34,128 nt of DNA from Candidatus Peregrinibacteria bacterium (lineage in GTDB: Bacteria; Patescibacteriota; Gracilibacteria; CAIRYL01), in NCBI GenBank assembly GCA_016220175.1, contig JACRHZ010000066.1, forward strand, positions 1 through 34,128. Direction: 5' to 3'. Positions 2,757-18,181 of the stretch are shown piece by piece. The notes under the pieces were generated by a model. That model searched no databases, was not told the origin of the DNA, and saw only the letters and a program-made list of their open reading frames with translations. Numbering within the stretch: position 1 is the first letter of the stretch; every line of letters starts with the position of its first letter. The translations under genes were made by a program, and so were the position numbers.

Positions 2757-5700
2757 TTGACACATTCTTCTCCAAAGATAACTTCTTTCCCGTTGTTCCA
2801 TCTTCAATATTTGAAACGGCTCCGTGAAAAATACACCCAAACAGGACTCATTTTCGGGATTTTCCTGTTGTTGCTCATCGGAACAGGATTTTCCCTTTTC
2901 CCTAAAAATGATGCTTTTGGATATGGATATACGGTCGATCTTGCCTACGATATGGCAGCAAATCCTTCCGCGATCAATAATGGTGAAACTACGACCTACA
3001 CGATAAATATTAAAAACAAGAGTGATGGACCACTTGATACCGTAGGTATAATTTTTAGCTTTGATGCAACACATCTCCAATTTGTTACTGCCACTGCAGG
3101 ATCCTGTAGAGTCGTCCAAGGCTCGAAAGTTGATTGTGCGAATGGTCCACTTGCTCAGGATGCGACATTAAGTTTCGGAATTACAATGCGAGCGATAAAA
3201 TCAGGATCTCCGGACAGCACAATTATCGTATATCATTCAAACCATGTGGAATATGGTAATGACAGCACTTCTGTTGATATTGAGCCAGCCGCAGATCTCT
3301 CCGTTACGAGAACTGTGGACAAATCGGCCGTTGTTCCCGGAGAAACAGTTGAACATACACTTACTATAAAAAATAATGGTCCAGATATTGCAGAGACCTT
3401 CTCTCTCTCTGACTCTTATAATGAAACCCTTTTTGCCGTTGATTCGACAACAGTTCCTGCAAATTGTGAGATAATTACTGCTGCCATATTCTGCGATTTT
3501 ACAAATTTGGGAGTGGGAGCGAGTACGGTAATAACATACCAAACGCTCGCGCGTGATACCGGAACTTCTGGATCTGCCCAATTTACTCTTGTCCTCGAAC
3601 CTAATACTCCAATAGATCTCAATTCGGCAAATAATTCTGCAACAAATACCGTAAATGTGAGTTATCGTACCATTCGAACTTCAGAAGAAAATTTTTGGAA
3701 AATTGATGGCGTAAAAACATACCAAATCACCGCTGCTGTAGCGAACGGCACAACTGGTATGCAAAATATACGCGTCCTTATCAATTACCAAGGAAGTAAT
3801 TCTTCAAATCGCCGAGGTTACTTTGCTTGGAATGAGGGAACTACTTACACTTTTGATCCTAATTCTACAGATCAGCTTCCGTGTGGAACTGGAAAGGTTG
3901 ATAAATACAATGGCACTACCAATGGCGGATTTGGAAAAGATTTTATTGATCTCGTGGGGTGTTCTACTTCCGTCACTTCTCAGGGGCAACGCACAGTGAC
4001 TTTTACTGTTCGTCCTCGAAGTAACTTTGGTGATTTCGCTCGTATTAATGATATTTCACTTTGGACGACGGATACCGCCGGAAATGTACTGGATTGGCAA
4101 AATTATGATATCAACTTCGGAAGCGATGGAACTCCTCCCTCAAAAGACGCTCTCTCAATAACAACAATAGCAAATAACTATTTGAGAATTGATGGAGTCA
4201 CTTCATATACGATCACCGCAAAGGCAACAGACATGGGAAGTGGTATTCAAAATATGAGAACTCTTATTAATTACCAAGGAAGTAATTCTTCAAATCGCCG
4301 AGGATACTTCGCCTGGAATGAGGGAAGTACTTACACTTTTGGCTCTGATTCCACCGATCAATTCCCGTGTGGAACTGGAAAAGCTGATAAATACAATGGC
4401 ACTACCAGTGGCGGATTTGGAAAAGATTTTATTGATCTCGTTGGGTGTTCCACTTCCGTCACTTCTCAGGGACAACGCACAGTGACTTTTACTGTTCGTC
4501 CTCGAACTAATTTCGGCGATTTCGCTCGTATTAATGATATCTCGTTTTGGACGATGGACACAGCTGGAAATGTTACCGATTCTAGCAATGGTTCCAGTGG
4601 TTGGGATAATTATGATATTAACTTCGGAGCTACGAAATATAATCCGATTCCGGAGTCTATATCTTTCTTCCCTTCAAAGACAGAGTATTATACCATAGAA
4701 AATCCAAATCTCATCTGGCAATCTTCTCAGTTTACCGAGTATGTTCAAATACTTGGAGAAAATATTACAAATCCCATTCAAACAGGATCTTCTGGGCAGT
4801 TAGAATTAGACGGACCTCTTTCTCCCGGAACATACACCTATTCCATTACTCCTTACGGACCAGATGGTATTATAGGCGAATCTCGAACCATCGATCCTTT
4901 GCTTAAAGTCATTCCTACGCCTCAGTGTACGGAAGACAACAGAGTGGAAAAGTGCGGAACGTATGCCTGCGTCGGATCTCAGAGTTGTGACACTCTATGT
5001 ACAACGGAAAACAAATGCGCCGTTTCTACAAATTGCTCGTCTGTGAAAGGACGATGCGGAGCGCAGTGTTCACTCAACTCTGACTGCCAAAATTCGAAGG
5101 AAGTGTTCTGTAATGCAAACCATGAAGTCTGCACGCCGATATGCTCCACAGAAACAGCAACAAAAGGGCAATGTGTTGCGGGAACAACAGACTGTCACAC
5201 TGAATCTGGATTTTGCAACGTGCCAGAAGCGCTTTCCGTAAATATTCCAGCTCAAACCATTCTTTTTGGAACAAAACCAACTGATATCGTCATATCTGGA
5301 GGAACACCTGGGTACAGCATTACTTCCGTGGAAGAAACTCCAAAATCTGGAAGTACTGGGCTGAGACCGACTCTTAATGCCGATGATGCCACGATCTCAT
5401 TCCCGTCTCCTGCCATTGGAACAGGAGAAATGAAAATAACGATTAGGGATTCTCTCGAACAATCAATCGAGGTAACTATTGTCGTGTATGCTCGCCCGAA
5501 TCTTGCAAATTATAAAACCTTTACCATTGATTCCACTTGCGATAAAAGAACCGGAAACAATGCTGCTCTCGTTGGAGAAATTTGCACACTTGTAGCTACG
5601 GTAACATTTGATGATGGAAGTTCTCAGGATGTTTCTCGAGAAGTATTTTGGGATGGAACCAAAGGAGCGGGAGTGTTTCTCGATGGAGACACGAACGGAA

Positions 5701-7703
5701 AGCCAGATGGAAGATCTGATATTTTTATTCTTCCCGCACCACTCACAAGTGACACGCCGAGATACGTCGACATCTCCGCATCGCTTCTTATTTCAGACGA
5801 TCCCGAAGATCCAGATGCCGTATATGTCCGAAATGATGATGAACCGATTCGATTTGAAATTAAGGATCCGGGAAGACTTTCTTCCCTTGAAATTTCTTCT
5901 GAATGTGACACAAAAACAAAATCTGTGGGAGATGATTGTACGTTAAAAGCCAATGGAAAATTTGCAGATGGAACTCTTCACGATCTTTCGAATATCGTGG
6001 AATTCCTCGGATATCAAACCATCGGAAAACTTCTTGGAACAAAGGCTGGAGATCCGAAAAATGGTATTTTGGAAATTACAAAACGCGGTATTGCGACGAT
6101 TACCGCATATATGCCATTTTCCATTTTTGATGGAAATCCGGGAATTTCGGGAGATGATACTAACAGCATTGCAGATGTCATCTACAAAAATAGAGGAGAT
6201 GGAGTTTCCTCAGAAACGTCTGTCGTTATTACCGCAGTTGATCCGACAAGAATTACCTCAATCACTGTTTCGTCACCAAATTGCGATGGAAAAGAAGTAC
6301 CAATTGGAACCGTCTGCGTACTTCAGGCATCAGGAATCTATGAAGATGGAACTTCCTATGATATTTCGAATTTGGTTACGTGGATCGGACATGAAGCGGT
6401 TCTTGGCGATAAAGGAAAACTCGGTGAAAATGGCGTCCTTACGACAGGAAAAGCAGGAACTGCCGTTATTCATGCAACGCTTGTCGTGAATCCAAAAGAT
6501 TCTTCAGGAGGAAGTATTTCTTCAACTTCATCTGACAGTATTACGATCACCGTAATAAATCCGGGAATTTTGAAATCAATTACTGTTTCTTCAAATTGCA
6601 GTGGTATAAAAATCATTGGAGATGTCTGTACGCTGAGGGCAATGGGAACATTTGCGAGCGGCGAACGTGATATTTCTGATCAAGTCACATGGAACGGTAT
6701 TTCTGCTCTTGCTGGTGCGATTACAGGTATGAGTGACATGGTGATTACAAAAGCAGGCGTTGCGACCATAAGCGCAACTCGAGCCATTGATCCAGAAAAT
6801 GCTGGAGCAGGAAGTGTTTCTTCAAATTCCATCGAAATTTCAGCCGTAGATCCAGGAGAAATTGACTCTATTGCGATTAGTTCTCCATGCAGCGGACTCC
6901 AGAAAAAAATTGGAGAATACTGTCAACTCAAAGCAGAAGCGACATATAAAGGTGGAGAAAAGGGCGATGTTTCGGAAAAAGTGACATGGACGGGGTTTGA
7001 TCAAATTGGCGTGGTGAATGGTTCACTTCTCGAGATTAATAAGCGCGAAAATCGAGCTCAAACGGAAGCGCTCATTTTTGCGCATATTTCTCAAACAAGT
7101 GGCGATATTCGTTCTCCAATGAATGCTCCCATTCGAATTATTGTGGTGGAAAAACTCCCTGAAATTAGGAATATTTACACGATCGGAAATCCAGAAATTT
7201 CCAGAAATACTCATACGGATTTGTATATTGATGTCTTCAGCGAAAATGGAATTTCAGAACTTGGGAAAATTCATGCATTCCTGTACGAAGGAATGTTTGG
7301 AACGCCTGAAGAAATTCCAGCCGCGCAGAATTCATTTACCATTATTGAAGATGATAAGGCTTCAGAAGTGACAGAAGGAATAAATTCTGCTCTCATTAAA
7401 CTTCCGATCTACATTCCCGTGTTTGCGGACATGCAAGATGGACCATTTACTTTCCTCGTAAAGATAGATACCAATTCCGGAAATACTATTTCCAAAGTAT
7501 ATACCACCTATCTCGGAATGCGTCCTTCTGGAGATGTGAGTGGAAATGGATTCCTTGACAAAGCTGATATTTCGATGATGCTCAAAATAGTAAATAGCGA
7601 AATTCAAGCTTCAGAACAGCAGATAAAACGTTCTGATTTTAATGGAAATCGTCAAGTTGATCTCATTGATGCTATCTTTGCGCTCAGAAAATACGCTGAG
7701 TAA
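2757..7703 (+). CDS. Giant secreted DUF11/Ig-repeat protein with C-terminal dockerin-like domain (surface protein A)
   Basis: Predicted exported protein of 1648 residues with no catalytic domain that I recognise. In order: basic N terminus and hydrophobic signal/anchor (29-50); two DUF11-like beta domains (about 60-300); two near-identical 162-residue repeats (about 304-625); an Ig-like segment; a Cys-rich region with 16 cysteines (722-820); five BIG-like Ig repeats (about 915-1465), each with a Cys pair near its start and the pattern C-T-L-x-A-x-G-x-F; a conserved domain shared with the next gene (about 1466-1590); and a dockerin-like pair of calcium loops (1592-1648), beginning GDVSGNG and SDFNGNR with Asp at position 12 of each loop. 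TTG is the first available start because a TAA lies in frame at 2742; no ATG precedes the signal sequence. Its likely role is structural, on the cell surface, held by cohesin partners encoded just downstream. Confidence 0.85.
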   Translation: MTHSSPKITSFPLFHLQYLKRLREKYTQTGLIFGIFLLLLIGTGFSLFPKNDAFGYGYTVDLAYDMAANPSAINNGETTTYTINIKNKSDGPLDTVGIIFSFDATHLQFVTATAGSCRVVQGSKVDCANGPLAQDATLSFGITMRAIKSGSPDSTIIVYHSNHVEYGNDSTSVDIEPAADLSVTRTVDKSAVVPGETVEHTLTIKNNGPDIAETFSLSDSYNETLFAVDSTTVPANCEIITAAIFCDFTNLGVGASTVITYQTLARDTGTSGSAQFTLVLEPNTPIDLNSANNSATNTVNVSYRTIRTSEENFWKIDGVKTYQITAAVANGTTGMQNIRVLINYQGSNSSNRRGYFAWNEGTTYTFDPNSTDQLPCGTGKVDKYNGTTNGGFGKDFIDLVGCSTSVTSQGQRTVTFTVRPRSNFGDFARINDISLWTTDTAGNVLDWQNYDINFGSDGTPPSKDALSITTIANNYLRIDGVTSYTITAKATDMGSGIQNMRTLINYQGSNSSNRRGYFAWNEGSTYTFGSDSTDQFPCGTGKADKYNGTTSGGFGKDFIDLVGCSTSVTSQGQRTVTFTVRPRTNFGDFARINDISFWTMDTAGNVTDSSNGSSGWDNYDINFGATKYNPIPESISFFPSKTEYYTIENPNLIWQSSQFTEYVQILGENITNPIQTGSSGQLELDGPLSPGTYTYSITPYGPDGIIGESRTIDPLLKVIPTPQCTEDNRVEKCGTYACVGSQSCDTLCTTENKCAVSTNCSSVKGRCGAQCSLNSDCQNSKEVFCNANHEVCTPICSTETATKGQCVAGTTDCHTESGFCNVPEALSVNIPAQTILFGTKPTDIVISGGTPGYSITSVEETPKSGSTGLRPTLNADDATISFPSPAIGTGEMKITIRDSLEQSIEVTIVVYARPNLANYKTFTIDSTCDKRTGNNAALVGEICTLVATVTFDDGSSQDVSREVFWDGTKGAGVFLDGDTNGKPDGRSDIFILPAPLTSDTPRYVDISASLLISDDPEDPDAVYVRNDDEPIRFEIKDPGRLSSLEISSECDTKTKSVGDDCTLKANGKFADGTLHDLSNIVEFLGYQTIGKLLGTKAGDPKNGILEITKRGIATITAYMPFSIFDGNPGISGDDTNSIADVIYKNRGDGVSSETSVVITAVDPTRITSITVSSPNCDGKEVPIGTVCVLQASGIYEDGTSYDISNLVTWIGHEAVLGDKGKLGENGVLTTGKAGTAVIHATLVVNPKDSSGGSISSTSSDSITITVINPGILKSITVSSNCSGIKIIGDVCTLRAMGTFASGERDISDQVTWNGISALAGAITGMSDMVITKAGVATISATRAIDPENAGAGSVSSNSIEISAVDPGEIDSIAISSPCSGLQKKIGEYCQLKAEATYKGGEKGDVSEKVTWTGFDQIGVVNGSLLEINKRENRAQTEALIFAHISQTSGDIRSPMNAPIRIIVVEKLPEIRNIYTIGNPEISRNTHTDLYIDVFSENGISELGKIHAFLYEGMFGTPEEIPAAQNSFTIIEDDKASEVTEGINSALIKLPIYIPVFADMQDGPFTFLVKIDTNSGNTISKVYTTYLGMRPSGDVSGNGFLDKADISMMLKIVNSEIQASEQQIKRSDFNGNRQVDLIDAIFALRKYAE
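3667..4630 (+). repeat. Tandem 486-bp coding duplication
   Basis: Two copies of a 162-codon unit lie head to tail inside surface protein A. Cores starting at 3783 and 4269 are nearly identical at the DNA level, including the stretch encoding GSNSSNRRGYFAWNEG, while the edges have diverged. This indicates a fairly recent duplication or gene conversion. Confidence 0.85.
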
Positions 7704-7864: not shown

Positions 7865-7992
7865 AAAAGGTAGGGAGAATATAAGCCCAATTTCTCCTTG
7901 TCCTATTTTTCCCCATTCGTCAAGGACAAACCAGCGAAAAAAATCCGAAAAAATGGTAAAATATACAGAATTTTTGTAAGATTTTTTCGGAG

Positions 7993-7998
7993 TAAACT
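7993..7998 (+). promoter_or_regulatory. Possible -10 box of surface protein B gene
   Basis: TAAACT at 7993-7998 would place transcription start at about 8005, one base before the ATG at 8006. The match is 4 of 6 and no good -35 box is seen, so it is supported mainly by the same leaderless spacing as at other genes here. A GGAG at 7989-7992 lies 13 bases before the ATG, far for a Shine-Dalgarno sequence. Confidence 0.25.
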
Positions 7999-8005
7999 CC
8001 TCAGC

Positions 8006-11000
8006 ATGTTCTTGCTATCTCACAACAAAAAACACCGATCTTGGGGAAATATGATTCTCGTGGGAATTCTGGGGATTTTTTTGATGGGAATTTTTTCAAA
8101 CGTATCGTTTGCAGACAATATAGTTTTTTTCCCCCCGACAGGAGGATTACTACAATTTTATGATGCCACAACAGCAAATGAATGGGATGGAAGTGGAAAT
8201 TTTTTGGATATTAATATTGTTGATGGCTTTACTGGGTTTGTACAAAATTCATGTGCCGCGCATAATAATGATGCGTACATTATCTCACAGGGATGGGCTG
8301 TAATTGTAATGATAATGAAACCTGGCTATGCAATTTTTAATGCAACTGGACAAGTTGTAGGAAGTGGTAATTTGGGAGATGTTGACATAACAAGCGACGG
8401 TCAAAATGGAACATGTGTATCAGGTTCAAGTTTTTCTTTTGGAGAGAAGGGGCGTTATGAACAGGCTCGAAATGACTCTATAAATGTTTCTCAATTAGCC
8501 AATGGCACCTATGTGGTCTCTGTTGTTGTGACGGCTACATACAATGGAACAACAAGGATGCATACCTTCTTCAAAGATCTTGTGATAAATCGAGCTCAAC
8601 AAGATCCACAAGTTGATCAATGCCCCAGCGGCAATAATTCTGAATGCCCGTCCTACTGCGGGAATATTGTGAATGGAAGCCGTGAATATTGTTCTGGAGT
8701 ATGTAACTCGGATAAAACTTGTGGAAAAACTTGTACATCAAATCCAAATGATTCTTGCGATGTAAAAGAAGATGGTTGTCCCTACACTTACTGCCGAAGC
8801 GGAGGAAAATTTTGTGATATGAAGCCCAGTGATATTGCCAATGTTCATTGGTGTGTTGAAAAAAGCTGTAGTGCGCCAGGAGATCCACGATGTAAAGCAG
8901 GAGGAACTTGTAGCGCAACTTCACCATGCACTGGAAGTGTTTGCAACAACAAAGGCGAATCTTGCACTCAAAAATGTACAGGAACACAATGTGTTGAAGA
9001 TAAGTGTACTCCAGATCCTGTTCATTGTGCGGGTGATCCGAATGAAAATTCTTGCCTCAGCTTAAAACCCGCAAGACAGAGCCCTGATTATGACACAAAT
9101 GAACCTCCTACTTTACAGTGGACAACTGGAGCGAAAACGACAAAAGTTAAAATAGCGGGTCCCAAAATTTCCGTTGATCCACCTGATCCGCTGCCGCCGA
9201 TAGAAGGCAAGTATTTTGGAAAAGATGGGACTCTAACACTTCCTATCCATACTCCAGCAGGGAATTACAACTATACACTTACTCCCTTTGATGATGCAAC
9301 GCCCACTCCAAATCAAGGAACACCACTCTGCACTCTTACTCTTCCTATAACTGCTGCCCCAGCGTGCAGTGCGACAGATCCTCGATATCCGTGTGACCCG
9401 AATCGCGATTATTGCGTTGGCACAAAAAGTTGTTCTCCAAAGTGCGTAAGTAATGCTTGTATTCCGAATCCTGACGACTGTTCTTTCAAAAAAGGAAAAT
9501 GCGGAGCTCAGTGCGGGAAAAATGAAGACTGTCCTGTCTTTCCAGACGGAGTGTATTGTGGCGGAGATGGTGGAAAACAAGTGTGTGCGCCTCAGTGTGA
9601 TCTCACTACGGGAAAATGCATAGCTGGACCGACAGGAACATGTTGGTATGAAGATGGTCAATGTGGATTCTATAATCCCCTGTCTCTTTCTCCACCGGCA
9701 CAAACAGTGCTCGTGGGCGATCCGCCAACAAATATTTCTATTTCTGGAGGGAAAAAAGCCTACACTATTACGTCAGTAGAAGAAGCTATCCGTCCAGGCG
9801 CAACAGGACTGACGCCCACGCTGGATTCCAATTCCGATCTTATAAAATTTCCCAAAGCAGCATCTGGCGAAGGAATTATGAAAATCACAGTAAAAGATGC
9901 GCTCGGAAAAGAAGCCATCGCGAATATTACAACTCTTTCACTTCCTCCTCTTTCCTCAATTGATAAATTCTGGGTGGAAAGCAGTTGTACGGGAGACAAG
10001 AGTGATCCGGTAAACTATGACGATGATTTTGATGGCGTTTCTGATAGTAAAGACAACTGCCCACTTGTGTATAATCCAGGACAAGAAGACTCGGATGGCG
10101 ATAAAGTTGGTGATGCTTGCCAAAACGGAAAGAAAGTCACCGTGGGCGAAGTGTGCACGCTCTTTGCCAAAGTACAGTATCCGGGAAAAACGGTTGGAGG
10201 AAATTCAATTCCCGGAGTTATTCGCGACGTTTCTCGCCTCGTTTATTGGGAAGGCTTTTTTGAAGTTGGGGTTTTTGTGAACGGGAACGAAAAAGGTCAA
10301 ACTCCTGGCGGTTCTGATCTCTTTATTATTCCACGATCACTCGCCACTGATACTCCAACATTTGCAAATATTACCGCTCTTCTCGTTCTCTCCGGTGAAG
10401 ATCCTGCTGATCCAGAAGCAGTTACGGAACGAAGTTCCAATCAAATTCGGCTGGAAGTGAGTGACCCCGGAAAACTGGAATCTCTTGAAATTTCTTCCGA
10501 GTGTGATGAATACAGAGCTCCTCCAGAAAGTGCAGGAGCAGATGATGACAGAGATGGCATTTTGAACGGAGTTGATAATTGTCCGTATGTTTCAAATCCA
10601 CGAGTAGATGGAAAACAACCGGATACCGATAATGATGGAATCGGTGATGCGTGTGATAAAAAACCAAAAATTCTTGGAGATATCTGTACACTCAAGGCTG
10701 AGGGAACATTTGATGATGGCACAAAACATACCATTTCTCATCTTGTGGAATGGCTTGGGTATCAAAACATTGGAAAAATGGTGAATGATGCAAAGCCCGG
10801 AGACAGTGGCAACGGACTCCTTGAGATCGAAAAGCGTGGAAGAGCCACAATTACGGCTGTTATGCCTTTTTCAATTTTTGATAAAAATCCAGGAATTCCA
10901 GGGGACGATATCAGTAGTATCGAAGATATTTTGTACAAAGAACGCGGAGACGGCGTTTCTTCTCCTGAAAATGATCCCATTATTATTACCGCTGCGAATC

Positions 11001-12607
11001 CAGGAAAACTCGTTTTGATTTCAGTAAGTTCCCCAAATTGTGGAAGAGTACAAAATGGAAGCGTTGAGAAAAATCTTGTTGGACAAACATGCGTTCTCAT
11101 TGCGAAAGGAACTTTTGAAGATGGGAGTGAATATGATATTACTCCGCAAGCGGATGTAACATGGATCGGTTTTGAATCAGTTGGAGATGAAGTAAATGAA
11201 ACAGGAATTTTGAATCTGACAAAAAGCGGAATGGCGAGTATTCGCGCAACACGAAGAGTGTATCTCGAAGATTCTGAACCAGAAGGCGGACCTGCGCCAG
11301 GAATAATTTCTTCCTCAAATAATATTTCGGTAACTGTTCTTGATCCTCAAAAATTGGAATCAATTGCCGTTTCTTCAGAAGGATGCGATGGAAAACAGAA
11401 ACTCATTCATGATATTTGTGTTCTCAGGGCAATGGGAACATTTCAAGATCTGGATCCGAATACTCCCGGAAATACAAATATTCATGATATCTCCCATGAA
11501 GTTACTTGGAATGGATTTTCTGCCGTTGGAACTGAAATCAAACCGGTTGCGGAACTCGAAATTACGAAAACGGGAATCGCCACAATTACGGCAAGTCGTC
11601 TTCTTGATCCCGATGATGATTCCAAGGGACTCATTTCTTCAGATCCGGCAAAACCAATTGTGATCACTGGAGTCGATCCCGGTGAGGCTCTCAAAATCAC
11701 CGTGGATTCTGATTGTAACAACAAAGACCCTGTTCAGAATCCCATTCAAAAACATATTGGAGAGTATTGCGAACTCAGGGCTACTGCAACGTATCAAGGA
11801 CGTGGACAAGGCTGTGATACAAATCCCGAAAGCTGCAAATTTCTGGCGGATGTTTCTAGTCAAGTTCTTTGGAGAGGATATGAAGGAATCGGCGTGATCG
11901 ATGCGAGCAATAAATCACTTCTGGAAATTACGAAGAGAAATTCTGCTCCAGAAACAATTGCGAATATCACTGCAATTTTTGAGCAATCTCTTACTCATGA
12001 AACATATCACGACATCGTTTCCGAAAATCCTCCGATAAAAATTTCTATCGTTGAGAAAAAACCAGAAATTCGCGGAATTCATACAGTGGGAAATTTTGGA
12101 ATTGGAAGGAATACACATGAAAAACTTTTTGTCGATATTTTCACTGAACCGGGAGATGCCACTTTCGATACGATTCAAGCGCATCTTTACGAAGGAAGTT
12201 TTGCTTCTCCGGCAGATATCACTGGAGATGCCTTCCCGATTATCATTGAGGAAACTGCACCACTTATTACCGCGGGACAAAACGCAGTGATGATTGAACT
12301 CCCAATTCTTATTCCCGACTTCGCTGGAATGGATGAAGGACCATTTACTTTTCTGGTCAAAATTACTACGAATTCCGGAAATGTTATTTCTGCAGTTCAT
12401 CCGACGTATCTTGGCACTGCTCCCACAGGTGATTTTAATGGAAATAAATATGTGGAACTTTCTGATATCATTTCCATGATGCGAATAGTGAACGGAGAAA
12501 TCTCTCTTGCAAATGAAGAGCAGCGCAAAAGAATCGATATGAATTTTGATCGAGTTATTTCACTTCTCGATGTTCTCCTCGCATACAGGAGATTTACATC
12601 ATTATAG
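8006..12607 (+). CDS. Giant secreted Cys-rich/Ig-repeat protein with TSP3 inserts and C-terminal dockerin-like domain (surface protein B)
   Basis: Exported protein of 1533 residues, paralogous to surface protein A over its C-terminal two-thirds. In order: signal peptide (hydrophobic 16-31, likely cleavage after SFA at about 36); an N-terminal domain that I do not recognise (37-200); a long Cys-rich region (about 205-352); a beta segment; a second Cys-rich region (about 452-555) similar to that of protein A (shared KGKCGAQC or close variants); five BIG-like Ig repeats (about 650-1349) with paired cysteines; the shared C-terminal domain (about 1350-1474); and a dockerin-like pair of calcium loops (1475-1533, GDFNGNK and DMNFDR). 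The first two Ig repeats carry thrombospondin type 3-like calcium inserts between their cysteines. The ATG at 8006 gives a clean signal peptide, whereas the upstream open frame does not. It is probably a product of duplication of gene A with a replaced N terminus. Confidence 0.87.
9991..10140 (+). other. TSP3-like calcium-binding insert 1 in Ig repeat 1
   Basis: Residues about 671-709 of surface protein B contain [15 protein letters not shown] and [11 protein letters not shown], the Asp-rich DxDxDGxxDxxDNCP pattern of thrombospondin type 3 repeats. It sits between the two cysteines of the Ig repeat, where protein A has only a short loop. Confidence 0.8.
10504..10675 (+). other. TSP3-like calcium-binding insert 2 in Ig repeat 2
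   Basis: Residues about 846-887 contain [15 protein letters not shown] and [12 protein letters not shown], again between the two cysteines of an Ig repeat. The equivalent repeat of protein A (SSECDTKTKSVGDDCTL) lacks it. Confidence 0.8.
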
Positions 12608-12639: not shown

Positions 12640-15600
12640 ATGAAATTTCGAAGCCCCATCGTCATTCTTATCATTCTTCTCCTTGGAGTAGGTGTGTTTG
12701 GAATTATTCTGCAGACAAATTTCTTCAAAGCGACCTTATTTCAGGGCGGAAATGAACCTATCGCTGGTATAGCTCAGCAAATATATATTCCGAATAATTA
12801 TAGGGCTGCTCCAGGACAAATTGGGGAAATTGAAGTAAGAAGCAATTTTGAAAAAGCAAACGTGACAGGACTGAGATACTTAATTTATTGGGATGCCACT
12901 CAATTAAAATATAGAGGATATGTACGGGAAAACTTGCCTTGGACAAGTGACTTCACTATTAACGCATTTCTGGCAAATCAAGAAACAGAGACCGATAATG
13001 CGAAAAACATGATTGCAAGATTGCGACAAACTATTCCAGATCTTCCTGAAAATTTGGAATTGCTCCTCTTTACTGTCCAAGGAGATTCGTTTATCTCCGT
13101 ATCAAAAAATGCAATCCTTTCTCGACTACAATTCGAAGTAATGTCCGGACTTGCTGAGAATATTCCTCTTCATCTTTCTTTTTATGCTGACGAGACCGCC
13201 GTAGCCTCATTAGGTTCTGCACAAGAAAAAGAAATAATTGCAACGAAACTTTCCCCCAGAAATGGTCTCATAACTGTTGACTTTGGAGCCAAATTGCAAA
13301 ATGAAACTGCTGCAGATGCATTCTTCGTCATGCCCGGACAAACCGGAAAAGTAACGCTCACAGCTCCAACAGAAGGAACTTTATCGAATGTCGTTGGTCT
13401 TTCTTTTACAGTAGAGTGGAATGCTCTACAAGCAACTTTTCTTAAAGATATTCCAAAATCCGTTCAAGAAACTCCTTTTGTGAATAAAGATTTCCTCATC
13501 GAAACATTCCAGAGAGATCCTTCCGTGGGAGTTTTGAATGTTTCCATGGTAACAGCGAAAGAAGGAGTAAATCTGGCGAGTGGAGCTCCGATCATGAATT
13601 TTGATATGCAATTCGCACAAAATTTGGTACTGGGGAGTTCTGTTCCTTTCACATTTAAAAATATTACATTTGTCTTTGAAAATCCTGAACCGGAAAATAA
13701 TATTCTCACGCCAACAGAGAGTCCTCCAAAAACTGTTCGCATCACTGTTGATAGCGCTGGAGTCATGAAGCTTCTGAGCGTACAACCGATTTCAGGAGCA
13801 AAACTTGAACTTGGATTTTCGGATTATCTCGATGCAGCAGTTCTTTCAGATATTACAATTACGCCAAATATTATTACAGCTGATACTACCCTTCGTATTG
13901 AAAATAAAAAACTCATTCTCGAGAATCTTGGAACGGATCTAAGCCCAGATGCAAAAACAATTTATCGAGTGGATGTTTCTTCGAGCGTAAAAGGAAATTC
14001 TGAAGGAGGAGTTCATCCAAGTTTCTCTACGGGATTTTTTGAAGAATTTACTGATCCTGATCCAGAAGACAATGCTTTCGGGCTCCAAAGTGCCGTGCCT
14101 TCGTCTCCAAGTTCTCTCATTCTTACATTTTCTGCGAACATATCGTCCCCAGAAATGAATACAAATTTTGTAAAAATTTATTATGCTGATGAGGCGAAAG
14201 CGATGAGAGAACTCAATATTTCGAAAATCGAAAAACAAGGAAATACGCTTACTCTTACGACGAGAGAGCAAACTCCGGGGAGAGAATATTTCGTCATTGC
14301 GCTTCAGGACAAGTGGAAAAATGCAGACAATAAATTCTTGACTTCTCAAAATGGACTTTCGTTTTTTGGATATACGGAAAATCGCCCAAGGATTACTTCA
14401 GTCTCCTCTCAGCCGCCAGTAATAATAAATTCCGCAGCGTCGCAAATTACGCTTCTCGGTCAGAATTTCGCAGCAGGAAGCATGCTCCTTGTTGGAGACG
14501 CTGTCATTGTTCCCACATCCATTACGAGTTCACAGATAGTATTTTCTCTCCCCGCTGAATTTCCAGCAGACACGTATACAATTCTCCTCAGAACTTCGAG
14601 TGGAGATATTATCACCGCGCCAACTCAGCTTATTGTCAATGAACCAGAACTGGAATTTAAAATTCTTTCCGATCAAAGCCGTGCAAGTCCATCAGCAATA
14701 GAAAATGACGGGATTATGAAAACAAAACTCTGGGTACTTGTGGTGAATGATATCGATGGTGTTTCTGATATTGAAAAAGTTACCGGAGATCTTGAGCTTG
14801 TTGGTGGATCTCGAATTGCAGAATTTACATCAAGCGACGAGTTTATCACTGGAAATCAAAGGTGGTATTCACTCGAAATTACCGTTCCTTCGAGCGTTCA
14901 TACTTCTGAAACGCCATACCTGATTCCTGTTAAAGCTGAAAGCAGAAGAACGGAACGAACTGCAGCAGGAACGGTTTCTTTCTCGGTCGTAAAAGATATT
15001 AAAGCTGGTACTGCTCCTCAAATTTTGAGCGCGAGTGTGAGCAGGACAACGGTTGCTCCAGACGCAGGAACTCCGCTTACTATCAGTGTGGAAGCGAGAG
15101 ATGAAGATGGCGCTTCTGATATTTACAGAGTTATTGTGGATCTCAGCAAAATCGGATTGCCGAATATGCTCTTAAGTCCACTCTCAGAAAAAATTCCTGC
15201 CCCAACTCCTCAGCAGAAAAGAGCATGCACGGCGGATGATTACACAGTAACCGAGTACGGAGCATGTACAGATGGAACGCAAACACGAAGCGTGCAACGT
15301 AAAACTGGAATTGATTGTGTTGATGGCGCTTCAAAACCACCGAGTTCAAAAACATGTACGGCGCAAATACGAGCATGTACGGTCGATGATTATAATGTAG
15401 GGGAATATGGAACTTGTACAAATGGAACCCAATCACGAAGTGTTACTTTAAAGAGCGGAGTGACCTGTATTGAAGGGGCTTCAAAACCGCAAAACTCAAG
15501 AACTTGTACACCGCCAACATCATTTTGGGAGAATCTCTTTCCGAAGGCATTTGCAGAAGAATCTTCATCTGTAGATGTCGCTACTCAATGGTTTGAGAGT

Positions 15601-17574
15601 GATGAAATTATGATCCCAAAAGATATTGTTCCCGGAACATACACTCTTCCAATTACCGTGATCGACACGCAAAGTAAAGAAGCGCGAACTTCTGTTACGA
15701 TAAATATTCAGAGAAACACAGGAGGAACGCCAACAATTGCGGAAAATATTTTTGTGTCCCCTTCCAAAAGTATGATTAAAGACGGAAAAACAAAACACAT
15801 TTTTTCTGCAAAAGCAACAGATCGAGTTGATGGAGGAAAAGATATCGAATCTATGATCGCTGATCTTTCTGATCTCGATCTTCCTCCTACTCCGATGAAA
15901 TTGACGTTAGTGCAAGGAGACAGCGCGTTCTTCACGCTCGATAATATTGTCATTCCGGAAAAAACAATTCAAGGATTCAAGGCAATTAAATTTAGCGTGA
16001 GTGATAAATCTGGAAATACTTCTGAAGTAAAAATGATTGTGGAAGTTGTACGACTCGTAGATTCTCCTGACGCAGCGACGCCTGAGATCAAATCTGATCG
16101 CGGATATATGACACCGGTATATGCGCCAAATGATGGGAAAACTCGATTTACTGTATACGTTTTCGCCAGAGATGGAAACGGCTACAAAGATATTGATTAC
16201 GTCACTCTTGAACTCGGAAATGTGGCACGCTTCGTGGGAAAAACTTCGAGTCAGTATAATCCGTCCGTGGATTATAGCCCTGCAAAGGGAGATAATGGAG
16301 CTCAGGAAGAGAAAGCAAAAGATGATGGGAATCAAAATAATAATGATGGCAATGATGGTGCATCACTTTTGTTCTTTTCAAAAGCTTCTGCAGCAGCAAC
16401 TCCTCAAGATAACAAATGCGTCACAACTGACACTATTATGTGTTTGTCTCCATCAGTGAGTGAAGGCGAATTTGGACGATGGTTTTACGCACCAGATTTG
16501 GTAATTCCAAAAACTACTCCAGTTCCCGCAAATGGCGAACCATTTGAGCTCCGAGTTTCCGTGACAGATTCTGTCGGAAGAAGTGGGAATGGAATTGCAA
16601 AGATTTTTGTCAGCGATGGAAATACACCTGATCAGCGTGAGCCAGCGCCATATTTAAAGCAAGCGGTTGCAGTCGGTCCTGATGTCATCGAAACTATTTT
16701 TTCTGCACCAGTCGAAGCATCGAGAATTTCAGACGGAGCATTTACAATTGTCGAAGCAAAAAATATTAAAAATACACTCGACATCGAGGACATCGATATT
16801 TCAAGCAGTGGTCTCTTAATTACGATTCATACCGAACAAATGACCGCAGATGAACCCTACACGCTCATTGTGGACGCAGAAAAACTCAAGCTGAATAATC
16901 CCCGATTCTCAACAGACCGCGTAAACTTCCTGGGATTTTCCGCTGAGAAAGCGAAGAATTCTCGCGATCCGAGCGCACTCGTGGCAAGGGCAGTAGGAGA
17001 TAAGCGTGTGGAAGTACAATTCAATGTGGATATGAAATTTTCTACACTTGATGCAACCGGAAAAGAGTGGTTCCGCATTTACGGTCGCGATGATATCACC
17101 GATCGTCTCCCCATTACTCACGTGGAAATTGGAAAAAATTCAAAAACAGTTCTCGTGTACACGGAGCAGCAAATTTCTGGAAAAGAATATGCGCTCGAAC
17201 TCAAAAACATTGAGAGCATATTCGGAAAGAAAAGACCTTATTCTAAAGCGCTTTATTTCCTCGGATATAAAAATACCGAAAAAACAGAAGCAGACGCTCG
17301 TACAAAGTTGAGTGGTCTCGAAAAAGAAATGGACGCAAATGGAGATGATGAAATTAATTTCTATGAATTTTCTAAATTTGCAGCCACATATGGTCAAACG
17401 GCTTCGGACGGGAAACCACTCTATGGTGATTACAATAAAGACTCCAAAGTTGATTTTGAGGACTTTATTATCCTGGCGGCACATTATGGAATCACTCCGC
17501 CAAAAGATACGAAAAATGTTCCTCCATTTCCGCAGGATGAAGTGGAAAAAGAAGAGCAGAAATTCCCTGCCTGA
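12640..17574 (+). CDS. Giant secreted scaffold-like protein with N-terminal cohesin-like modules and C-terminal dockerin-like domain (surface protein C)
   Basis: Exported protein of 1644 residues. Visible order: signal peptide or anchor (about 5-28); two cohesin-like beta modules (about 40-213 and 214-370), each with a PGQxG...V start, an L.Y..YWD/SFTVEWN strand followed by a bulky hydrophobic position, and a closing N-G-L-I-T-V-D or R-I-T-V-D strand; SbsA/BIG_5-like domains (about 380-575); an IPT/TIG domain (about 577-668); repeats with D-x-D-G-x-S-D-I loops; two TSP1-like Cys modules (about 862-955); further Ig-like repeats; two more BIG_5-like domains (about 1337-1545); and two EF-hand/dockerin-type loops (about 1565-1626, DANGDDEINFYE and DYNKDSKVDFED). 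A cohesin-like start with a dockerin-like end is the layout of an adaptor or polymerising scaffoldin. The cohesin assignment is by pattern only; the dockerin loops are clearer. Proximity to genes A, B and the lipoprotein suggests one assembly. Confidence 0.82.
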   Translation: MKFRSPIVILIILLLGVGVFGIILQTNFFKATLFQGGNEPIAGIAQQIYIPNNYRAAPGQIGEIEVRSNFEKANVTGLRYLIYWDATQLKYRGYVRENLPWTSDFTINAFLANQETETDNAKNMIARLRQTIPDLPENLELLLFTVQGDSFISVSKNAILSRLQFEVMSGLAENIPLHLSFYADETAVASLGSAQEKEIIATKLSPRNGLITVDFGAKLQNETAADAFFVMPGQTGKVTLTAPTEGTLSNVVGLSFTVEWNALQATFLKDIPKSVQETPFVNKDFLIETFQRDPSVGVLNVSMVTAKEGVNLASGAPIMNFDMQFAQNLVLGSSVPFTFKNITFVFENPEPENNILTPTESPPKTVRITVDSAGVMKLLSVQPISGAKLELGFSDYLDAAVLSDITITPNIITADTTLRIENKKLILENLGTDLSPDAKTIYRVDVSSSVKGNSEGGVHPSFSTGFFEEFTDPDPEDNAFGLQSAVPSSPSSLILTFSANISSPEMNTNFVKIYYADEAKAMRELNISKIEKQGNTLTLTTREQTPGREYFVIALQDKWKNADNKFLTSQNGLSFFGYTENRPRITSVSSQPPVIINSAASQITLLGQNFAAGSMLLVGDAVIVPTSITSSQIVFSLPAEFPADTYTILLRTSSGDIITAPTQLIVNEPELEFKILSDQSRASPSAIENDGIMKTKLWVLVVNDIDGVSDIEKVTGDLELVGGSRIAEFTSSDEFITGNQRWYSLEITVPSSVHTSETPYLIPVKAESRRTERTAAGTVSFSVVKDIKAGTAPQILSASVSRTTVAPDAGTPLTISVEARDEDGASDIYRVIVDLSKIGLPNMLLSPLSEKIPAPTPQQKRACTADDYTVTEYGACTDGTQTRSVQRKTGIDCVDGASKPPSSKTCTAQIRACTVDDYNVGEYGTCTNGTQSRSVTLKSGVTCIEGASKPQNSRTCTPPTSFWENLFPKAFAEESSSVDVATQWFESDEIMIPKDIVPGTYTLPITVIDTQSKEARTSVTINIQRNTGGTPTIAENIFVSPSKSMIKDGKTKHIFSAKATDRVDGGKDIESMIADLSDLDLPPTPMKLTLVQGDSAFFTLDNIVIPEKTIQGFKAIKFSVSDKSGNTSEVKMIVEVVRLVDSPDAATPEIKSDRGYMTPVYAPNDGKTRFTVYVFARDGNGYKDIDYVTLELGNVARFVGKTSSQYNPSVDYSPAKGDNGAQEEKAKDDGNQNNNDGNDGASLLFFSKASAAATPQDNKCVTTDTIMCLSPSVSEGEFGRWFYAPDLVIPKTTPVPANGEPFELRVSVTDSVGRSGNGIAKIFVSDGNTPDQREPAPYLKQAVAVGPDVIETIFSAPVEASRISDGAFTIVEAKNIKNTLDIEDIDISSSGLLITIHTEQMTADEPYTLIVDAEKLKLNNPRFSTDRVNFLGFSAEKAKNSRDPSALVARAVGDKRVEVQFNVDMKFSTLDATGKEWFRIYGRDDITDRLPITHVEIGKNSKTVLVYTEQQISGKEYALELKNIESIFGKKRPYSKALYFLGYKNTEKTEADARTKLSGLEKEMDANGDDEINFYEFSKFAATYGQTASDGKPLYGDYNKDSKVDFEDFIILAAHYGITPPKDTKNVPPFPQDEVEKEEQKFPA
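15223..15515 (+). repeat. Tandem TSP1-like Cys modules in surface protein C
   Basis: Two successive modules share the pattern R-A-C-T-x-D-D-Y, E-Y-G-x-C-T-x-G-T-Q-x-R-S-V and G-A-S-K-P-x-x-S-x-T-C. This resembles the CxxG-TQTR core of thrombospondin type 1 repeats. The copies are similar in both protein and DNA, so they arose by duplication. Confidence 0.7.
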
Positions 17575-17605: not shown

Positions 17606-18181
17606 ATGATGAAACGATTTCTCGCAGCACTTTCGATTGTTTCTCTCGTTGTTTTTGGATCAGGTTGTGCACTACTTCCGAAAAAAAATACTTCGGGAGA
17701 TGCACTTATAAAGCTCATTGAAGCAGAACGAAATCTCAAAAAAGATGTTTCTCTTACGCTTCAAACTCTTTCAAATACCGCCGAAACTTCTGAAGTTGAA
17801 ATTTTGCTCAAAAATCCTTCGCTGCAAAAAATTGAAAGTGTTCGGGCATGGGTAAATTTTCCTCCAAAAATTGTTGAGGGAAAAAATATTGCGTTTGCGG
17901 AGAACATTGTACTTGCAGCTCCGGGAGAAGATACGATTGATAATGAAAATGGGATTGTAAAAATTGGTGTTTCTCTTGATCCTCAAAAAAATTCTGCTTC
18001 AGAAATTTCATTAGGAAAAATCACGTTCTCTAAAAAATCTTCTGAAACTGTTGCCCTTTCTTTTTTCGATGCGCGCACAGATGGTCACACCTTTGTTCTC
18101 ATTGAGTATAATGGTGATCTCAGAAATATTCTCGACACTGAATCCCTCGAACCACTCATGATTCTCGGGAATACAGAATGA
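17606..18181 (+). CDS. Small lipoprotein with a cohesin-like domain
   Basis: A 191-residue protein with a basic start, a hydrophobic helix and a likely lipidated Cys21 in VVFGSGC (Gly at -3 is less usual than Leu). After a short linker comes one beta-rich domain (about 45-170): a first strand SEVEILLKN, then IESVRAWVNFPPKIVEG, a G-I-V-K-I-G-V-S-L strand, and L-G-K-I-T-F-S-K-K-S followed by V-A-L-S-F. That order resembles cohesin-fold domains. It starts 31 bases after surface protein C on the same strand, so it may share its transcript. The natural reading is a membrane-tethered cohesin receptor for the dockerins of proteins A-C. The lipoprotein call is firm; the cohesin call and its partners are inference. 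ATG ATG gives two possible starts one codon apart. Confidence 0.75.
   Translation: MMKRFLAALSIVSLVVFGSGCALLPKKNTSGDALIKLIEAERNLKKDVSLTLQTLSNTAETSEVEILLKNPSLQKIESVRAWVNFPPKIVEGKNIAFAENIVLAAPGEDTIDNENGIVKIGVSLDPQKNSASEISLGKITFSKKSSETVALSFFDARTDGHTFVLIEYNGDLRNILDTESLEPLMILGNTE

Follow-up and report, generated by a model that had tools for sequence, protein, structure and literature searches.

A small lipoprotein with a predicted cohesin fold as a candidate membrane receptor for giant surface proteins in Candidatus Peregrinibacteria

Introduction

A contig from a Candidatus Peregrinibacteria bacterium (JACRHZ010000066.1 of assembly GCA_016220175.1; positions 1–34,128, referred to here as the window) encodes three giant proteins, termed A, B and C, and directly after them a small lipoprotein. 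This raises the question of how proteins of such size are held at the cell surface. Cohesins are the 'sockets' that grip dockerin 'plugs' in cellulose-degrading machines, and a sequence-only reading of the locus proposed that the lipoprotein is a lipid-anchored cohesin which fixes the dockerin proteins to the membrane.

The lipoprotein and its lipid anchor

The lipoprotein is encoded by an open reading frame of 191 aa (positions 17606–18181, plus strand), and is assigned a cohesin domain on the basis of an AlphaFold2 model, Foldseek searches and a family alignment. The spacing of 31 bases first read between it and protein C is correct, as protein C ends at 17574 and the lipoprotein starts at 17606; promoter and terminator scans of this gap gave nothing above chance. 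The N-terminus, MMKRFLAALSIVSLVVFGSGC, is a signal peptide with a lipobox (17606–17668, plus strand), in which the GSG-C21 motif places Cys21 as the lipid-anchored residue. The lipobox Cys is invariant in the alignment (25/25 lipoprotein homologues). The lipidation enzyme Lgt (PF01790, 75.7 bits) is encoded in the same genome at G000:C21, and thus both hallmarks of a bacterial lipoprotein, the N-terminal signal with its lipobox Cys and the enzyme, are present. The protein would be exported, lipidated on Cys21 and displayed on the outward-facing side of the cytoplasmic membrane. Neither SLH repeats nor an LPXTG sorting signal was found in it by Pfam scan, sequence inspection and membrane-segment prediction.

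Proteins A–C likewise show no C-terminal membrane segment and no SLH match in Pfam scans and membrane-segment prediction. The first reading of the locus had seen no LPXTG, sortase or SLH signals in these three proteins, and this stands for LPXTG and SLH, but not for sortase, as the genome encodes one (PF04203, G000:C11:4871-5308).

A predicted divergent cohesin

The cohesin domain spans residues 54–191 (17765–18178, plus strand). Residues 40–191, aligned with 26 domains from Candidatus Peregrinibacteria, Patescibacteria and Gracilibacteria records, were modelled with AlphaFold2 at a mean pLDDT of 88.7 and a pTM of 0.83. Foldseek matched the model to 62 PDB chains at E ≤ 0.001, and the best 50 of the 62 are all cohesins. 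The top match is Ruminococcus flavefaciens ScaC (5lxv, E 3.2e-7), followed by type II cohesins; TM-scores are moderate (0.5–0.64). The predicted fold is thus the cohesin beta-sandwich, as had been suspected from three strand-like strings. These strings are present at residues 64–70, 76–85 and 136–145, and fall on model strands 61–69, 76–84 and 133–143.

At the sequence level the relationship is more distant. The window protein on its own has no Pfam or NCBIfam match, and the family is reached via its homologues, by means of a 25-row lipoprotein alignment, a 13-row subset of which was used to scan the genome collection for members. Searched against the PDB, the 25-row profile has as its best matches the anchoring-scaffoldin cohesins 4uyp and 4ums, both weak (E 0.012 and 0.024). 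Pfam Cohesin (PF00963) matches 11 of the 25 lipoprotein relatives and 32 of 38 membrane paralogues at E ≤ 0.01. Against the curated cut-off of 24.1 bits the window protein gives no match, and a paralogue on contig C13 of the same genome scores 30.3 and 33.5 bits, the latter in the genome search. Going by the model, the one domain of the lipoprotein is a divergent cohesin, with a likeness well beyond chance. The lack of a direct Pfam or NCBIfam match in the window protein itself would also suit an unrelated beta-sandwich lipoprotein that lies near dockerin genes by chance. This is extremely improbable, and we consider it refuted by the homology to proteins above the Pfam Cohesin cut-off, such as the paralogue, by the Foldseek cohesin matches and by the conserved gene order described below.

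The giant proteins

Protein A (1648 aa; 2757–7703, plus strand) is exported and ends in a complete dockerin (7506–7682). Protein B (1569 aa; 7898–12607, plus strand) also has a complete C-terminal dockerin (12404–12583) and is 40% identical to A over ~1190 aa. The two are paralogues, and dockerin giants have therefore expanded here by duplication. In the genome search both dockerins lie above the PF00404 cut-off of 22.9 bits (29.6 for A and 27.7 for B); whole-protein scans place them just below it (22.3 and 20.4). In protein A, a weak N-terminal match to PF00963 (14.5 bits) was discounted, as that region is DUF11-like.

Protein C (1644 aa; 12640–17574, plus strand) is a giant surface protein homologous to the C-like proteins whose genes precede that of the lipoprotein in relatives (blastp E values from 2e-7 to 2e-166). 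Residues 1562–1622 (17323–17505, plus strand) form a C-terminal pair of F-hand/dockerin loops, DANGDDEINFYEF and DYNKDSKVDFEDF. Both Pfam scores are below cut-off (PF00404 20.1 bits against 22.9; EF-hand_1 24.1 bits against 25.4). A dockerin HMM made for this analysis recognizes the C-terminal modules of A, B and C. In a search of the genome a dockerin profile matches protein C with E 1.7e-19, but protein C itself is one of the profile rows. Peregrinibacterial (f10) C-like proteins have a single F-hand (ADLNGDGKVDFIDFTMFSAVYG and similar), followed by a proline-rich tail.

At its other end protein C carries two cohesin-like domains. Domain 2 (residues 231–348; 13330–13683, plus strand) was modelled at a pLDDT of 75 and has cohesins as its best PDB matches (E 3e-5), with pilins and integrins lower. 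At the same place a relative (G004:C24) has a Pfam Cohesin match above cut-off (PF00963, 26.9 bits). Domain 1 (residues 56–216; 12805–13287, plus strand) is recognized by the profile of the domain 2 model (47 bits) and by alignment. An hhalign comparison of the lipoprotein profile with domain 2 is weak (probability 16%, E 3.6e-4), and the two are thus similar by fold, not as demonstrated close relatives.

Residues 6–24 of protein C form a strongly hydrophobic N-terminal segment, by which the protein may stay in the membrane rather than be released. The N-termini of C-like proteins are atypical for a cleaved signal peptide: in L090, L097 and L101, for example, a long hydrophilic tail precedes a TM segment and then a conserved FRAAITE/FKATLFQ-like pattern. 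Pfam scans detect no enzyme or CBM domains in A, B or C; the matches are to DUF11, CARDB, TIG, TSP_3 and DUF4625.

Gene order in relatives

Homologues of the lipoprotein were expected from the first reading to lie next to dockerin genes, and they do so rather than being consistently found away from them. At 20 of the 25 lipoprotein loci a C-like gene is immediately upstream on the same strand, and a C-terminal F-hand or dockerin is visible in the C-like protein at 19 of these 20. The 20 loci are the window, L078, L079, 14 loci of family f10, L105, L103 (read with code 25) and L104 (C-terminus masked). Among the remaining five, G001 has its C-like gene one gene away, and in four members of genus g3 it is elsewhere or was not found. 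In genus g3 the lipoprotein adjoins purC or a transporter, at a distance from the C-like gene, and its conservation is low.

In f10 (Peregrinibacteria) and f2 the order is an A-like dockerin protein, the C-like protein, the lipoprotein, a membrane cohesin with fn3 and a bitopic protein of ~300 aa. The genes are on one strand with short gaps; the A-like protein has a complete C-terminal dockerin, and the C-like protein is 1300–2500 aa where complete. Some contigs end before A, and one f2 locus has no A at the expected place. The ~300-aa protein has N-terminal and C-terminal TM segments and no confident family match. Sortase-like tripartite tails (QPQNGP, VPGETG or SGPE, then TM and Arg/Lys) are seen on two consecutive genes, those of the membrane cohesin and of the ~300-aa protein. 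The operon of L103 (2069-12039; G018), with its 1513-aa C-like protein and 372-aa membrane cohesin, stays open throughout only if TGA codes for an amino acid (table 25; glycine). The gene order thus outlasts a change in the genetic code.

Most f5 loci examined have another arrangement instead, in which an exported or membrane-bound dockerin protein of ~109 aa is directly before the membrane cohesin. This small protein (e.g. L107:10253-10579) joins a signal/TM segment to a complete dockerin through a conserved QPVSLIEAGS-like linker and contains little else. Counting all genomes that bear the family, a PF00404 dockerin is upstream on the same strand within 1 kb in 34/83 and within 7 kb in 44/83.

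It could be argued that the cohesin fold has been kept for another ligand, such as a glycan, peptidoglycan or one of the domains of the adjacent membrane cohesin, and that the protein is a general adhesion or chaperone-like lipoprotein. Cohesin-like folds do match adhesive proteins that are not dockerin receptors, as protein C domain 2 does with pilins and integrins, and the lone F-hand of Peregrinibacterial C-like proteins is an incomplete dockerin. The adjacency of dockerin and cohesin, however, recurs throughout the class in two arrangements, C-like protein before lipoprotein and 109-aa dockerin before membrane cohesin, and another ligand is improbable.

Probable partner of the lipoprotein

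The lipoprotein is found in 25, the C-like core in 27 and both in 23 of 288 genomes, which are related by descent. Among the family-bearing genomes 23 have both, two and two have one without the other, and 56 have neither. The genomes with the lipoprotein only are G006 (81% complete) and G088, whose contig is cut and whose upstream fragment is C-like; those with the C-like protein only are G002, G019, G122 and G285. In f5, G179 is the sole genome with the lipoprotein and also the sole genome with a C-like protein, and perhaps its operon moved en bloc. Co-occurrence, counted without correction for shared descent, and the G179 case favour C as the partner.

The best reading of these sequence patterns is that the lipoprotein is a membrane receptor for protein C through the C-terminal F-hands of C. 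The module bound by its cohesin, presumably in a calcium-dependent manner, would be an F-hand of the dockerin type, most likely that at the C-terminus of protein C, and protein C would thereby be kept non-covalently on the cell surface. For f10 C-like proteins we infer that the single F-hand would be enough for binding. Several points go against this reading. The C-like proteins of Peregrinibacteria have one F-hand, and the proposed partner thus does not consistently keep a complete dockerin. The lipoprotein of genus g3 lies apart from the C-like gene, the Foldseek TM-scores are moderate, and the window protein by itself has no family match. The N-terminal hydrophobic segment may keep protein C in the membrane, which would reduce the need for a receptor.

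An alternative is that the lipoprotein is a cohesin receptor for the complete dockerins of A and B, with C anchored by its own N-terminal segment. A and B have two-loop dockerins above the Pfam cut-off and no C-terminal membrane segment, A-like genes are in the same operon in relatives, and C has the hydrophobic segment at residues 6–24. Yet f5 has complete dockerins with the membrane cohesin only, without the lipoprotein, and the lipoprotein tracks the C-like protein; we therefore think this choice among the three dockerins unlikely, less so than another ligand. Returning to protein C as the partner, it carries cohesin-like domains of its own, and the network may therefore be layered, not one receptor for all three. 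For A and B, protein C may serve as an adaptor, with cohesin-like domains at its N-terminus and F-hands at its C-terminus, and A and B would also be retained through these domains or through the membrane cohesin of contig C13. We consider it fairly probable that the lipid-anchored divergent cohesin holds C, and via C or the C13 paralogue A and B, non-covalently at the cell surface. As a whole the finding holds up, and the receptor interpretation is supported.

Membrane cohesins and anchoring routes

The C13 paralogue is the only one in the genome (414 aa; cohesin, fn3 and a C-terminal TM). Family members occur in 83/288 genomes of the class and have two forms, a lipoprotein of ~190 aa and a membrane cohesin of 340–660 aa with fn3. 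In a tree the two forms are nearly separate, with two label changes (2–3 over bootstrap trees) and weakly supported deep branches. Named records of the class and its TGA-recoded members suggest that the organism of the window likewise belongs to GTDB class Gracilibacteria. At their C-termini the membrane cohesins carry a sortase-like motif (QPQNG in f10, VPGETG in f5), a TM and a basic tail. With a sortase and the C13 membrane paralogue in the genome, the lipid anchor is not the sole anchoring route but one among two or more, and lipid and sortase/TM anchoring probably coexist.

Elsewhere in the same genome, contig C78 (L155:1-2853, minus strand) encodes a 460-aa protein with a dockerin end (PF00404, 25.0 bits). 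It is directly followed by a protein of at least 461 aa in which two stretches look cohesin-like by eye, with no Pfam match. The two are a possible further pair.

Comparison with known systems

ScaE of R. flavefaciens, a single cohesin, resembles the lipoprotein in being a surface-fixed cohesin that would take dockerin-bearing proteins. ScaE is attached covalently to the wall by sortase/LPXTG (PMC12484212), whereas the lipoprotein has a lipobox but lacks a sorting signal at its C-terminus, and no enzyme domains are seen in its neighbours. A nearer analogue of ScaE is the C13 paralogue, which has a sortase-like/TM tail. SdbA, OlpA and ScaC (Clostridium thermocellum, Acetivibrio) share the cohesin fold, and the PDB matches include SdbA (2bm3), OlpA (3ul4) and ScaC. 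Scaffoldins of this type attach to the wall via SLH repeats, which the lipoprotein does not have. It would work like an anchoring scaffoldin, yet fits neither the SLH nor the LPXTG anchor type. ScaG (CohG) of R. flavefaciens is also a small stand-alone cohesin, its structures 4n2o and 4wkz having matched protein C domain 2, but its operon differs. We know of no lipoprotein character for ScaG.

A cellulosome has dockerin-bearing carbohydrate-degrading enzymes on a scaffoldin. Pfam scans show no such enzymes in A–C, and the system is thus not a cellulosome. Cohesin–dockerin linkage without cellulose degradation has been described for noncellulosomal modules of the archaea Archaeoglobus and ANME (PMC9012536). 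These modules belong to a different lineage and have different partner proteins, and the passages on them describe no lipid-anchored cohesin next to giant surface proteins.

Genomes of Peregrinibacteria (class Peribacteria) are reported to encode large exported proteins in considerable number, together with sortase A and several copies of Lgt, and the words cohesin and dockerin do not occur in that paper (PMC4736985). In the open-licence dockerin literature on Peregrinibacteria, Gracilibacteria, CPR and Patescibacteria we found no description of the system.

Significance

A review of cellulosomes names SLH and sortase as the only typical anchors, does not mention lipoproteins, and considers new anchoring mechanisms a key open challenge (PMC12484212). 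A lipid-anchored cohesin, if true, would be an additional route. The lipoprotein probably holds giant surface proteins to the cell, and this offers a concrete, testable answer to how ultra-small bacteria retain giant exported proteins that have no C-terminal membrane or wall anchors.

The essential genes of a cultured Saccharibacterium include one for a dockerin protein (PMC10633639), and such systems may therefore matter for the epibiotic life style. More tentatively, and with some doubt on our part, the locus might represent a layered, non-enzymatic scaffold conserved in several Gracilibacteria/Peregrinibacteria, in which the lipoprotein holds C, and C together with the sister cohesin (sortase/TM) holds A and B. 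If so, this scaffold would be the outer surface by which tiny, presumably host-dependent cells contact other cells.
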